From a virus, in IMG/VR virus record IMGVR_UViG_3300045141_000297, positions 1-25,023 of that record: 25,023 nt of DNA; one strand, given 5' to 3'. Every line of letters starts with the position of its first letter. The first letter of the stretch is position 1. Under the pieces are notes generated by a model that made no database searches, was not told the DNA's origin, and saw only the letters and a program-made list of their open reading frames with translations. Made by a program: the position numbers and the translations under genes. Of the stretch, positions 988 to 13,113 are shown piece after piece.

Positions 988-1395
988 ATGGAGAAGTACC
1001 GAGTCCACGCACACCGGTCGGATGGCTGGTGGGCGCTGGAGTTCACCGAGGTCGACGACAGGCTCCACTCACAGGTGCGCCGTCTCGACCAGGCCGCCGA
1101 GATGGCGGCCGACGCGATCACGATGTGGCGCGCCGAGGAAGGTCTCGGCGCGGTGACCGCCGACCAGATCGAGGTGGTGCCGGTGCTCGCCGAGCTGCTC
1201 GACAAGGATCTGCGACGGGCGCTCGAGCGTCGCCGGGACGCCGATGTTGCGGCGGCCGAGGCGATGACGGCGACGCGGTTGCTGGTCGCTGATTGTCTGG
1301 CCGAGGGGATGTCGATGCGCGACGTCGGCGTGCTGCTGCACGTGTCGCACCAGTACATCGGCAAGCTCGCCAAGGAGCTCCAGGCCGCCGGCTGA
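988..1395 (+). CDS. HicB-like N-terminal domain with C-terminal HTH, 135 aa
   Basis: The first 45 residues (YRVHAHRSDGWWALEFTEVD, then an AAEMAADAITMW helix) follow the HicB-type antitoxin fold: a short beta sheet with a WW motif, then a helix. The C-terminal 40 residues hold a helix-turn-helix, GMSMRDVGVLLHVSHQYIGK. No HicA partner is visible; the gene follows the toxin/HTH pair after 12 bp on the same strand. It could be a second regulator of the pair or the orphan antitoxin of a lost HicA. The right end of the cassette coincides with its stop codon. Fold assignment is by pattern only. Confidence 0.7.
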   Translation: MEKYRVHAHRSDGWWALEFTEVDDRLHSQVRRLDQAAEMAADAITMWRAEEGLGAVTADQIEVVPVLAELLDKDLRRALERRRDADVAAAEAMTATRLLVADCLAEGMSMRDVGVLLHVSHQYIGKLAKELQAAG

Positions 1396-1415
1396 AACGG
1401 CGGTTGATTGTTCAT
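1396..1415 (-). pseudogene. orphan NEPPF-type leader, gene body missing
   Basis: Reading leftward from ATG at 1415 gives MNNQPPF, in the same ATGA overlap with the preceding stop as the functional leaders at 1567, 2134 and 2533. After about seven codons the frame runs into the antisense of the cassette gene ending at 1395. It stays open to 879 but then encodes serine/arginine-rich sequence typical of a shadow frame. The leader is intact and the body is gone, so I read it as the remnant of a gene cut by insertion of the 0.43-1.395 kb cassette. Confidence 0.55.
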
Positions 1416-1567
1416 CGGCCGACGGTCCCGGTGCGTTCGGGCGGCCAGCACGGGCCCACCCACTCGTGACGGTCGCGGTCCCAGTGGCAGCGGTCGGGTG
1501 CGTCGGGCAGGCAGTAGCACGCGCCGATGTCCGGCCGCCAGAGACTGAACGGCGGATCGTTAGCCAT
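1412..1567 (-). CDS. NEPPF-family small protein, 51 aa, Cys/Trp-rich
   Basis: Starts MANDPPFSLWRPDIGACYCL and continues with PDRCHWDRDRHEWVGPCW. It has four cysteines and five tryptophans in 51 residues, so it is probably a small metal-binding or disulfide-bonded fold. I do not recognise a family. ATG at 1567 overlaps the stop of the gene upstream (ATGGCTAA), and its own TGA overlaps the orphan leader ATG. Coding is supported by the leader shared with its neighbours, the overlap architecture and the non-random residue use. Confidence 0.65.
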   Translation of the reverse strand: MANDPPFSLWRPDIGACYCLPDAPDRCHWDRDRHEWVGPCWPPERTGTVGR

Positions 1568-1766
1568 CGCTGGGCTCGAACGTGACGGTGGTGGAGATGG
1601 TGACGGTGTGCGGCGGGAACACCGGCTCGTCCATCATGGTGTCGAACCAGATGTCGCACCCGCCGGGGCACTGAGCGATGTGATGCCGGGTGTTCACGAA
1701 CACGGCCGGGCCACCGGGGCAGTAGCGCCGGGAATCGATCGGCGGTTCAGTGCGGTCCTCAGGCAT
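1560..1766 (-). CDS. NEPPF-family zinc-binding small protein, 68 aa (paralogue of 2131-2328)
   Basis: Leader MPEDRTEPPIDS, then YCPGGPAVFVNT, QCPGGCDIWFDT and MMDEPVFPPHTV. The order CPGGPAV, CxxxC/CxxC, F.T, DEPV..PH is the same as in the protein at 2131-2328, so the two are duplicates that have diverged. The cysteines suggest a zinc ribbon. Its start overlaps the preceding stop, so it is translationally coupled. Function unknown. Confidence 0.7.
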   Translation of the reverse strand: MPEDRTEPPIDSRRYCPGGPAVFVNTRHHIAQCPGGCDIWFDTMMDEPVFPPHTVTISTTVTFEPSDG

Positions 1767-1989
1767 CGGGGTCCGTCCGTTCCCGCGCCCGCCGCGCCAG
1801 TTCCCGCGCTGCCTGACGGCGGTGCAACCCCGACCACCACTCGGTGTCGGCGGCGACGGCGGCCAACTCGTCGTCGCTGAGGTCGGTCGTCCAGCGGGGC
1901 GCGTCGCTCATGTGAGTAAGAGTCCGCGGGCGTCGCTCGCGTAACAGTTCGCCGCGGGAATCGATCGGCGGTTCAGTGCGATCACTCAT
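1759..1989 (-). CDS. NEPPF-family small protein, 76 aa
   Basis: Leader MSDRTEPPIDSRG followed by an internal methionine (MSDAPRWTTDLSDDELAAVA) and a basic C-terminal helix, RRQAARELARRARERTD. The ATGAGTGA start overlaps the previous stop by 8 nt, which favours 1989 as start. An internal ATG at residue 27 would give a 50-residue protein without the leader, so the leader may have been added in front of an existing gene. Function unknown. Confidence 0.6.
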   Translation of the reverse strand: MSDRTEPPIDSRGELLRERRPRTLTHMSDAPRWTTDLSDDELAAVAADTEWWSGLHRRQAARELARRARERTDPDA

Positions 1990-2134
1990 GGATCGCCCCG
2001 ATCAGTTGCTGGCCGATGTGCTCGGTGTAGGCCGGCGGTTCCGTTCGCTTCCCTGAGCATCGGTCGCAGTACGGGTCGGGACCGCTGGTCGGGCGACCGC
2101 ACGCCGCGCAATCGAACGGCGGTTCGTTACTCAT
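1982..2134 (-). CDS. NEPPF-family zinc-ribbon protein, 50 aa
   Basis: Leader MSNEPPFDCAACGR, then DPYCDRCSGKRTEPP and a C-terminal helix EHIGQQLIGAIHE. CAAC and CDRC form a plausible single zinc site. The ATG at 2134 overlaps the preceding TGA, and its stop lies inside the ATGAGTGA of the next gene. EPP occurs a second time in the middle of the protein. Function unknown; it may contact nucleic acid or protein through the ribbon. Confidence 0.7.
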   Translation of the reverse strand: MSNEPPFDCAACGRPTSGPDPYCDRCSGKRTEPPAYTEHIGQQLIGAIHE

Positions 2135-2328
2135 CGGCGGTCACTCCGTCGCGCTGTCTGTCCGCCGAACGTGATCCAGTCACCGGAGGTCCGGTGTGGC
2201 GCTAGCACCGGCTCGTCAGTCAGCGTGAAGAACCGATAGCCGCAGTCGAGGCACTCGCCTTCAAATCGCCCGACCTTCACGGCGGGTCCACCTGGGCAAT
2301 CGAACGGCGGTTCGTTGCGATCACTCAT
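2131..2328 (-). CDS. NEPPF-family zinc-binding small protein, 65 aa
   Basis: MSDRNEPPFDCPGGPAV, then GECLDCGYRFFTLTDEPVLA and PHRTSGDW. CLDC with the earlier cysteine suggests a zinc site. It is paralogous to the protein at 1560-1766 (same CPGGPAV and DEPV..PH blocks). The start is ATGAGTGA overlapping the upstream stop. Function unknown. Confidence 0.7.
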   Translation of the reverse strand: MSDRNEPPFDCPGGPAVKVGRFEGECLDCGYRFFTLTDEPVLAPHRTSGDWITFGGQTARRSDRR

Positions 2329-2533
2329 CGTTCGGCCGCCAGTCGCGAAGGCGTTCCCCGCGGTTGTATCGCGGTTGCTGCTCTCCCATCGGCGTGTCGA
2401 CCACGACGACGCGGTACCGGTCGTCTCCCGGCACGTCGAAGGTTCGGATCACCCGAACGTCGTGCCCGGCCCACTCGTACCGGTCGCCAGGCTTCACATC
2501 CCACGCAGTGATGAACGGCGGTTCGTTACTCAT
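2321..2533 (-). CDS. NEPPF-family small protein, 70 aa, beta-rich
   Basis: Leader MSNEPPFITAWDVKPGDRYE followed by alternating hydrophobic strands (HDVRVIRTFDV, RYRVVVVDT). This resembles a small SH3-like or OB-like barrel, and the phrase VKPGDRYEWAGHDVRV is often seen in compact phage beta proteins. No catalytic motif. The ATGAGTAA start overlaps the preceding stop. It is the most upstream member of the leader series. Function unknown. Confidence 0.7.
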   Translation of the reverse strand: MSNEPPFITAWDVKPGDRYEWAGHDVRVIRTFDVPGDDRYRVVVVDTPMGEQQPRYNRGERLRDWRPNDE

Positions 2534-2813
2534 CGGCCATCTGCCCGTTCTTCGACTGCGACACAAGTCGGTACGCCTGTGACCTTGACACGCCGAGATC
2601 TGACATCACCGCCGGGACGCCGCCACGGCGATGGGCGACCATGACCGCGGCTCGACGGAACGTGTCGACGGTGTGACGCCTGCGTCCGTCATCAGGGATC
2701 AACGGAACCGTCTCGACGATGACGACGCGGTCGATGACAGTGTCACAGTGTGGACACCGATACTCAGTCGGCGGTCCGATTCCCCCACCCGCAGAATCGG
2801 AGCTCGAGTTCAC
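2526..2813 (-). CDS. small zinc/HTH DNA-binding protein, 95 aa
   Basis: N-terminal TEYRCPHCDTVIDRVVIVET carries a CPHC knuckle. The C-terminal half, HTVDTFRRAAVMVAHRRGGV, is followed by MSDLGVSRSQAYRLVSQSKN, a helix-turn-helix of the GVxxVMxxLGVSRSQAYR type. It may be a regulator or a small terminase-like DNA binder. The GTG at 2813 overlaps the previous TGA (GTGA). The same frame stays open upstream and encodes plausible sequence (FLGCLDPHCPRLVVATLLER), so the true N-terminus may be longer, but no start codon is obvious there. Confidence 0.6.
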   Translation of the reverse strand: MNSSSDSAGGGIGPPTEYRCPHCDTVIDRVVIVETVPLIPDDGRRRHTVDTFRRAAVMVAHRRGGVPAVMSDLGVSRSQAYRLVSQSKNGQMADE

Positions 2814-2989
2814 GACGCGGAGCCTATGGGACGAGCTCGGCGAGCCTCGGACGATCGAGGAGGCGTACGGACGTTCGAGGAGGGTAGCGACGACGAGACG
2901 GGGGCAGTGCGGGTCCAGGCACCCAAGGAACGCGGGGGCGCGGACGCCCGCGCGTCGCGTCGGCGGACGACGACGATCGCGCCCGTCAT
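2810..2989 (-). CDS. uncertain small ORF, 59 aa
   Basis: ATG at 2989 overlaps the upstream stop (ATGA), and its TGA overlaps the downstream GTG (GTGA). The product begins MTGAIVVVRRRDARAS and is then rich in Ser/Arg/Pro, which is what out-of-frame high-GC DNA also gives. The competing frame, in phase with the gene at 2526, contains a more protein-like stretch here. I keep it because both overlaps follow the local rule, but one of the two frames is probably not translated. Confidence 0.3.
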   Translation of the reverse strand: MTGAIVVVRRRDARASAPPRSLGAWTRTAPVSSSLPSSNVRTPPRSSEARRARPIGSAS

Positions 2990-10846: not shown

Positions 10847-10920
10847 GACCTCTTCCTTGTCGCGGAAGTCGACGCCGCAGCGAGCGGCCCGTTCACGACA
10901 GGACCGGACGCCGGACGACT

Positions 10921-10945
10921 GGGAGCACTTCTGGTAGCACTTCTG
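10921..10945 (+). repeat. integrase arm-type sites, left arm (two 12-bp units)
   Basis: GGGAGCACTTCT and GGTAGCACTTCT stand in tandem, followed by G. The same unit recurs at 11132-11155 on the other side of the tRNA-like core. Direct 12-bp repeats on both arms of the attachment core fit binding sites for the integrase N-terminal domain. Confidence 0.65.
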
Positions 10946-10966
10946 TTCACGAAGAGGACCCTACAT

Positions 10967-10980
10967 GTCCCGTGATGTCC
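10967..10980 (-). promoter_or_regulatory. third copy of the GGACATNACGGGAC site
   Basis: On the minus strand this reads GGACATCACGGGAC, with a 16/17 match to the site at 8801-8817 when extended by GTA. It lies between the attachment core and the integrase operon and may let the immunity repressor or an excision factor act here. CTACATGT (10961-10968) next to it is inverted as ACATGTAG at 11017-11024, before the core. Confidence 0.45.
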
Positions 10981-11033
10981 TACGAAACCCCAGCTAGCAG
11001 GAAGTTTGCACGTCGTGACATGTAGTCCCGGGA

Positions 11034-11080
11034 CGCATGGCATGGAAGAGGTCAGGGGTTCGATTCCCCTCAGCTCCACC
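11034..11080 (+). other. attP: attP core: 3' half of a tRNA-Ala (GGC) gene
   Basis: From ATGGCAT (anticodon loop with GGC) through GGAAG (3' anticodon stem), AGGGG-TTCGATT-CCCCT (T arm) to CAGCTCC-A (acceptor strand and discriminator) this matches a tRNA-Ala 3' half, followed by CCC where CCA could be. The bases before the loop (GACGC) do not pair with GGAAG, and no D arm or 5' acceptor strand precedes, so this is not a tRNA gene. A core starting in the anticodon loop is a classic tyrosine-integrase target. The segment 10847-11181 (335 bp) otherwise holds only arm-type repeats and putative operators, no gene. Confidence 0.85.
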
Positions 11081-11131
11081 CCAGGTAGATGGCACAATCC
11101 GGCTCCGTCCGGAGGGGCCGAAATCCGGTCT

Positions 11132-11198
11132 GGGAGCACTTCTGGGAGCACTCCTGCACGGAGGAGCGCAACCTGGGAGCGCTACTCGGAGCGCTCGT
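11132..11198 (+). repeat. integrase arm-type sites, right arm (12-bp units)
   Basis: GGGAGCACTTCT and GGGAGCACTCCT at 11132-11155 match the left-arm units at 10921-10944. A weaker pair, GGGAGCGCTACT and CGGAGCGCTCGT, follows at 11175-11198, with another GGAGCGC at 11163-11169. The last units run into the 3' end of the lysis-region gene that stops at 11182. Confidence 0.6.
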
Positions 11199-11463
11199 CG
11201 ACCTCCTCGAGGGCGGCGTCGCGGTCGTTGCGGGTGATTCGCTCGGCGGCCCGGAACCCGATGTAGGACCCGAGGACGCCGATGATCCCGCCGAAGGCGG
11301 CGATGACGACCTGCGTCGCGTTCTCGGAGAGTCCAGGCGTGTCGGAGCGAACGGCGTCCCACACGACGCCGCCCATCAACATGCACAGCGCCAGGGACAG
11401 ACCAGAGGCGAGGATGATGGCAACCCACTCCCGGCCGCGCTCGGGCGGCGGCGACGACGCCAT
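11182..11463 (-). CDS. membrane protein of the lysis region, holin-like, 93 aa
   Basis: Two membrane helices are visible: EWVAIILASGLSLALCMLMG and VVIAAFGGIIGVLGSYIGF, separated by about 25 polar residues, with a charged C-terminal tail. This is the layout of a class II holin or a DUF-type phage membrane protein located after the endolysin. The ATG at 11463 overlaps the upstream TGA (TGATG). It is the last gene before the attachment site. Which of the three small membrane proteins is the true holin cannot be decided from sequence. Confidence 0.65.
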   Translation of the reverse strand: MASSPPPERGREWVAIILASGLSLALCMLMGGVVWDAVRSDTPGLSENATQVVIAAFGGIIGVLGSYIGFRAAERITRNDRDAALEEVDERSE

Positions 11464-12835: not shown

Positions 12836-13113
12836 AGCCGGTTGTTCCACAGGTAGGTGATGTCGGCGTCGAGCTCGTCGGCACGTTCGAGGTCATGACC
12901 GGTGAGCCGGCGCTGGCGGGCGACGGCGACCAGTTCGGAGAGGCAGCGCAGCGAGTCGAGCAGGTTGTCGGTCGGCACCGCGACGGGGTCTCGCTCGAGC
13001 AGGGCGACGCGGCGGATGAGGTCAGCGACGAGCACGTCGGTCGGGTCGTCGGGGTCCCAGGCGTCCTCGGGCTCGTCATCACCCCACTCGAATGGCGGCT
13101 CTTCGTCGCTCAC
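12832..13113 (-). CDS. small acidic structural-region protein with NEPPF-like start, 93 aa
   Basis: GTG at 13113 overlaps the previous stop (GTGA) and gives MSDEEPPFEWGDDEPEDAWD, echoing the leader of the small genes at 1.4-2.5 kb; an ATG at 13137 would add eight residues. The rest is helical: VADLIRRVALLERDPVAVPT, then LDSLRCLSELVAVARQRRLT. It lies between tail and endolysin genes. Function unknown; a minor structural protein or lysis regulator is possible. Confidence 0.65.
   Translation of the reverse strand: MSDEEPPFEWGDDEPEDAWDPDDPTDVLVADLIRRVALLERDPVAVPTDNLLDSLRCLSELVAVARQRRLTGHDLERADELDADITYLWNNRL

Follow-up and report, generated by a model that had tools for sequence, protein, structure and literature searches.

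We find that an array of small, overlapping genes in an uncultured phage begins with a common coding leader, and that this leader recurs at gene starts of other phages, is joined to different gene bodies, is conserved at synonymous positions, and carries within it the stop codon of the preceding gene. Beyond these observations, we infer a trans-acting reader, an effect on expression, and a route of spread: we give an about even chance to the account in which the leader is a portable start cassette with a core maintained at the nucleic-acid level, spread by recombination and read by a putative phage-specific factor.

The window, i.e., the whole stretch of DNA analysed here, spans 25,023 bp and corresponds to an IMG/VR record in its entirety. 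The genome is that of a temperate, siphophage-like virus; its minus strand encodes terL, portal, capsid, tape measure, lysin, integrase, and PrimPol, several of these names being based on position and sequence rather than on a profile. Its terL has close relatives in other uncultured viral contigs (65-75%) and distant kin among actinobacterial phages and prophages, including those of Streptomyces and Mycobacterium. Adjoining the integrase, positions 11041-11079 (GGAAGAGGTCAGGGGTTCGATTCCCCTCAGCTCCAC) resemble a tRNA 3′ end, and CTGGGAGCACTTCTG direct repeats lie nearby (10919-11199); together they are candidates for an attP core and its arm-type sites. ARAGORN returned no complete tRNA, and an Rfam search of the window gave no match. 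Three plus-strand genes (455-1395), the last of them HicB-antitoxin-like, are inserted against the minus-strand early operon, and they are possibly a toxin-antitoxin module that severed the body of the orphan leader. The leader array itself lies at 1395-2533 and is composed, with its neighbours, as follows:

2526-2837, minus strand: gene upstream of the array, with a CxxC pair and an HTH_23-like domain; its stop lies inside leader 1 and its own start is uncertain
2526-2533, minus strand: junction, ATGAGTAA
2510-2533, minus strand: leader copy 1, ATGAGTAAC GAACCGCCGTTC ATC; 8-nt overlap between its start and the stop of the upstream HTH/Zn gene
2321-2533, minus strand: gene g1, 70 aa, body DVKPGDRYEW... 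without zinc motif; no Pfam or PHROG match
2321-2328, minus strand: junction, ATGAGTGA
2296-2328, minus strand: leader copy 2, ATGAGTGATCGCAAC GAACCGCCGTTC GATTGC
2131-2328, minus strand: gene g2, 65 aa, CPGGPAV body; paralogue of g5
2131-2134, minus strand: junction, ATGA
2108-2134, minus strand: leader copy 3, ATGAGTAAC GAACCGCCGTTC GATTGC
1982-2134, minus strand: gene g3, 50 aa, with two CxxC pairs and a weak, below-cut-off match to a double zinc ribbon (E 0.005)
1982-1989, minus strand: junction, ATGAGTGA
1957-1989, minus strand: leader copy 4, ATGAGTGATCGCACT GAACCGCCGATC GATTCC
1759-1989, minus strand: gene g4, 76 aa, with a second in-frame ATG (MSDAPRW) at about 1914
1759-1766, minus strand: junction, ATGCCTGA
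1731-1766, minus strand: leader copy 5, ATGCCTGAGGACCGCACT GAACCGCCGATC GATTCC
1560-1766, minus strand: gene g5, 68 aa, paralogue of g2
1560-1567, minus strand: junction, ATGGCTAA
1547-1567, minus strand: leader copy 6, with a divergent core, ATGGCTAAC GATCCGCCGTTC
1412-1567, minus strand: gene g6, 51 aa
1412-1415, minus strand: junction, ATGA
1395-1415, minus strand: orphan leader, ATGAACAAT CAACCGCCGTTT; its final codon reaches into the stop of the convergent HicB-like gene
988-1395, plus strand: convergent HicB-like gene (phrog_8245, E 3e-14), abutting the orphan leader

The original prediction of a common leader on six consecutive genes and on an orphan start at 1415 is borne out at all seven starts, with the six genes overlapping on the minus strand, and at each of the seven junctions the start overlaps the preceding stop, as had been proposed. 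The repeated DNA block was likewise recovered: AACGAACCGCCGTTCGA (with at most 3 mismatches) occurs six times in the window, every time in the array, where 0.14 occurrences are expected by chance. The core of the window leaders reads GAA-CCG-CCG-TTC, and the seven leader 15-mers have a mean identity of 12.6/15 (random windows from the same region: 4.3, maximum 6.6). After the leader, the bodies of the array are mostly unrelated. The body of g4 may originally have started at the internal ATG near 1914, in which case some 75 nt before it are a leader-derived extension. Two further proposed members did not hold up: MSDEEPPFEW (near 13113) is spelled with the codons GAG-CCG-CCA and has a homologue without EPPF in another phage record (G014), and MNVDPF (at 406) lacks the CCGCCG core as well as an overlapping upstream gene.

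Related phages carry the leader pattern as well. Our curated set comprises 36 leaders in 14 contigs (the window and 13 further uncultured viral contigs), and the phages that carry them belong to at least two unrelated late-gene lineages. With terL as bait we found relatives of the window, among which L013 alone (terL 49% identical) has a leader array, in which three consecutive starts bear leaders of the SDRIEPLNDS type; these agree with the window leaders at the DNA level (GAGTGATCGCAYTGAACCGCYG) and have the stop of the upstream gene embedded in them. A DNA pattern built from the window and L013 leaders then yielded G014 (43.6 kb), with four more leaders and late genes unrelated to those of the window. 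The lysin common to the window and G014 served as a leader-independent bait and selected 80 contigs, which were scanned at the amino-acid level with all synonymous codons allowed; leaders were present in L131, L132, L134, L143, L159, L167, L199, L202, L205, and L207. Because several other contigs were picked with core-containing patterns, only the lysin-selected contigs constitute an unbiased sample. When whole records were scanned, a further array, of four genes, came to light in the record of L173. In record G440 of L167, a leader-bearing DUF3102 protein (L242, 1078-1833) heads a four-leader array.

Other searches delimited this distribution. An exact, peptide-degenerate MS(N/D/S)EPPFDC pattern had no match in viral contigs, nor had a narrower DNA form of the leader pattern, and PrimPol as bait found no relatives. 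Among the prophages of isolates, terL relatives (24-39%) had no array. The MPSDR form of the leader was absent from 397 phylum-sampled genomes, and a 9-nt form matched only two tsaD-like housekeeping genes in 247 class-sampled genomes. A blastn search of the leaders against isolated phages gave only tRNA T-arm look-alikes and chance junctions; most leader copies lack the T-arm resemblance (GGTTCGAT). Contigs L115 and L117 were discarded as leader carriers since their pattern matches were due to chance. Adjacent start pairs that share other N-termini (PMADD..., MLVQVRNRCS) were seen at L028 2591-2796 and at L114 6773 and 7819, and these are possibly other leader families.

Across the curated set the leader has a consistent anatomy. 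Its core, GAA-CCG-CYG-NNC (GAACCGCYGNNC), is read in frame as E-P-(P/L)-x and is often followed by GATTCC. GAACCGCYG lies in frame 9-27 nt downstream of the start in nearly all copies; the distance is 9 nt in 16 copies, 18 nt in 13, and otherwise 12, 15, 21, or 27 nt, all multiples of 3. A stop-start overlap with the upstream gene is present in 35 of the 36 leaders, with the upstream stop at offset +1 (ATGA), +5 (ATGnnTRA), +8 (ATGnnGAGTGA), or +17, so that upstream frames 1 and 2 terminate inside the cassette. Where the incoming upstream frame is frame 0, the leader ends up inside a fused protein, as at L013 879-1358 and in L167 (MQSERIEPLDDS...TGIEPLNDSRQ). Four 5′ types (ATGAGTAAC, ATGCCTGAnCC, ATGGCTGAC, and ATGCCGAGTGA) are shared between phages and are joined to different bodies. 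Bodies found behind leaders include an HNH nuclease, a conserved phage protein of 214 aa, and a DUF3102 protein. There are also leaders with no body at all (MPSDRIEPLFST, MTIEPPFICPRSTP, MREIEPLIKSREVK, and MKDAGYDEPPIQ); the one in G014 stands at the end of a run, in tail-to-tail overlap with a convergent gene, as in the window. No leader site was found at any candidate promoter.

The 214-aa protein (ALYVE...DPWD..RDAR..HPPC..W; L207 18523-19167 and L205 13724-14338; no Pfam match) illustrates how the leader is added. Similarity of the L207 protein and its L205 orthologue to phage proteins (Pseudomonas, Caulobacter, and other phages) begins only at residue 10-11: where the protein of Pseudomonas phage Persinger starts M/IAALYVE, that of L205 starts MGNEPPF/IAALYVE, the junction being M + IAALYVETDGAYF versus MGNEPPF + IAALYVERDGAYA or, read more fully, M-IAALYVETDGAYFGLDGVDPWD where L205 has MGNEPPF-IAALYVERDGAYAGLEHVDPWD. 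The protein also occurs in Xanthomonas phages and in microviruses, besides the Pseudomonas and Caulobacter phages, and in the Persinger record (MT613935) no CDS is annotated across most of it. Similarly, an HNH gene bears the leader in L143 (VADEPLFVSRPYAEPVYR) and lacks it in L131 (VSPYAEPAYR). Upstream of the latter, L131 4930-5000 holds a decayed leader, ATC-GCG-CCG-CTG-CTC-GAT-TCC, followed by an 8-nt insertion and then the HNH start; in its core, GAA has become GCG and TTC has become CTC. We read this copy as an evolutionary intermediate in which the uncoupled core lost GAA and TTC. The leader is a removable and precise N-terminal addition.

These properties are what would be expected if the leader were nothing but a neutral stretch of homology, itself functionless, that spread along with exchanged bodies: the addition is optional, orphan leaders lie at module edges, and the common 5′ types are paired with different bodies in different phages. 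We nevertheless regard such a pure recombination patch as rather unlikely, although of the competing explanations it fares best. Conservation is much higher in the 12-nt core than in the sequence immediately flanking it, and a neutral patch should decay, as did the sole uncoupled copy, in L131. Furthermore, the three variable bases of the core are uniform within phages (agreement 0.82 within versus 0.47 between phages, permutation p 0.001) whereas the flanks are not (3′ flank 0.49 within and 0.48 between; 5′ flank 0.43 and 0.37). This pattern also speaks against simple duplication or conversion of whole leaders, in which case the flanks would match too; recent conversion restricted to the core could account for part of the uniformity. 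By analogy with stoperators, and as suggested for ESAS, a phage-specific core could arise from a reader with phage-specific specificity.

The association of the core with gene starts is evident at the DNA level. The 12-mer GAACCGCYGNHC occurs 34 times in 1.04 Mb of related phage DNA, and 29 of these sites lie within 40 nt after a stop-overlapping start; for six permuted 12-mers used as controls, 1-7 of 5-40 sites do so. In the amino-acid-level census, where synonyms were allowed, the core Glu codon is GAA in 33 copies and GAG in 2, while GAA makes up 15 of the 180 Glu codons of the window genes. Counting one draw per phage, the fixation of GAA has P = 2e-7 against general codon usage and P = 2e-4 if the higher use of GAA near starts is assumed (35/65 in codons 2-13); the core Pro codon is CCG in 36 of 36 copies (P = 2e-5, one draw per phage). 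The codon backgrounds outside the window derive from uncurated long ORFs and are approximate. The leaders thus do not diverge at synonymous sites in the way that the bodies do, and their spelling is conserved at the nucleic-acid level beyond what a shared peptide would need.

It is this spelling that makes a docking or sorting peptide, E-P-(P/L)-x, recognized by a phage or host protein, an improbable explanation. The leader is always in frame, its Glu-Pro is kept, and the phage-specific fourth residue could mirror a co-evolving receptor. Yet the third codon positions are as frozen as the first and second, while residue 4 of the core is free to change (F, I, N, D, S, T, or K occur there), and the between-phage differences over E-P-X, 7/48/7 by codon position, are the reverse of amino-acid constraint. 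In addition, the same proteins exist without the leader. Among the readings offered earlier, the docking peptide is therefore disfavoured, whereas the other two gained ground: a homology patch by the precise N-terminal addition and the orphan leaders at module edges, and a start or coupling signal by the nearly invariant core and the stop-start overlaps.

A nucleic-acid signal could also be a LexA (SOS) box, tCGAAC-N4-GNNCGa, that sits in gene starts and silences them until DNA damage. Several copies fit CGAAC-N4-GTTCG, the GNNC part fits the LexA motif of Streptomyces venezuelae (PMC9380542), and GAACN4GTTC occurs three times in the window, each time in a leader. However, GAACN4GTTC lies at a start in 15 of 16 cases when its middle is CGCY and in 17 of 62, the background rate, when it has any other middle; the halves do not co-vary, about half of the copies lack GTTC, and the window has no site elsewhere. 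While some leader copies thus match the actinobacterial TCGAAC-N4-GNNCGA box (PMC9380542), the leader differs from it in its invariant CGCY middle (the N4 of LexA being free), its coding position, and its decayed right half, which renders this explanation very improbable. We give hardly any credence to an origin in which a single small zinc-protein gene was duplicated in tandem and the bodies of the copies then diverged: g2 and g5 are indeed paralogues, as had been noted (45% over 53 aa, E 2e-10), and g2 and g3 both have cysteine pairs, but g2 and g5 are the only homologous bodies found within the window, the other bodies (HNH nuclease, DUF3102 protein, 214-aa phage protein) are mutually unrelated, and the homologues of the 214-aa protein begin exactly after the leader. 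Least credible is an RNA element that promotes re-initiation through a post-start hairpin or 16S rRNA pairing, for although the consensus ATCGAACCGCTGTTCGAT is self-complementary and nearly all copies lie at stop-start overlaps, its arms show no covariation, the folds are generally no stronger than those of shuffled sequences (ordinary energies for most copies, no common structure), and matches to E. coli 16S rRNA are short (at most 7-8 nt).

Several known repeats resemble the leader. In-frame repeats within many unrelated proteins are known from the Rickettsia palindromic elements, which are longer, internal, and palindromic; the leader shares with them its carriage in frame by many unrelated proteins, but it is ~20-36 nt long, always at the start codon, and does not maintain palindromy. 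The start-associated sequence (SAS) of Cluster K mycobacteriophages is a 13-bp GGGATAGGAGCCC-like repeat that occupies the ribosome-binding position, 3-7 bp before the start, and the ESAS consensus varies by subcluster, its left half being better conserved than its right (PMC3203893); similar start-associated motifs occur in Microbacterium Cluster EF phages (PMC7302621). The comparison with SAS that was drawn at the outset is apt as an analogy. Both are short repeats, present in several copies of uniform orientation, that mark the starts of non-structural genes from various families, and the leader core has the same association with starts (29 of 34 core sites) ahead of unrelated bodies. Position and sequence differ: the core GAACCGCYGNNC shows no similarity to GGGATAGGAGCCC, and in all 36 leaders it follows the start by 9-27 nt and is translated in frame, whereas SAS lies upstream. 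Stoperators of Cluster A mycobacteriophages, which bind the repressor, are found genome-wide, with the early promoter and the repressor gene among their locations (PMC6550527). Like the leader, they are asymmetric repeats in one orientation with a motif that is uniform within a phage and varies between phages (for the leader, at core positions only), but the leader-core matches in the window are confined to the array at gene starts rather than dispersed.

In the portable-cassette account, the cassette would consist of a start codon whose first 4-11 nt hold the stop of the incoming upstream frame, a short, variable 5′ part, and the core. Recombination would re-assort cassettes and bodies, such that a captured body would at once gain a start coupled to the preceding gene. 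What would keep the core is its recognition, in DNA or RNA form, at the starts of genes; the most probable reader would be a protein or RNA specific to the phage, which would bring the small leader genes together as one co-regulated set. The cassette would then act like the actinophage start-associated repeats (SAS/ESAS), but from within the coding sequence. A counterpoint to a DNA or RNA signal is that frame-0 reading in every accepted copy exceeds what such a signal needs; descent of all copies from one in-frame cassette explains this. More tentatively, and with somewhat less confidence than an even chance, we propose that this 20-36 nt in-frame module is transferable, ending one gene and starting the next, so that a captured ORF would be coupled and would join a phage-specific regulon.

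The leader is a coding, in-frame relative of the actinophage start-associated repeats, a variant that is real, recurrent, and, as far as our limited search reached, not described in the literature. For annotation it counsels caution, because homologous proteins may differ by a transferable leader, and common N-termini here do not signify common function. The conserved core offers a handle, in the form of a DNA pattern, for finding small accessory genes in uncultured phages. If the account is true, the cassette would give phages a concrete mechanism for the uptake and immediate expression of small foreign ORFs.
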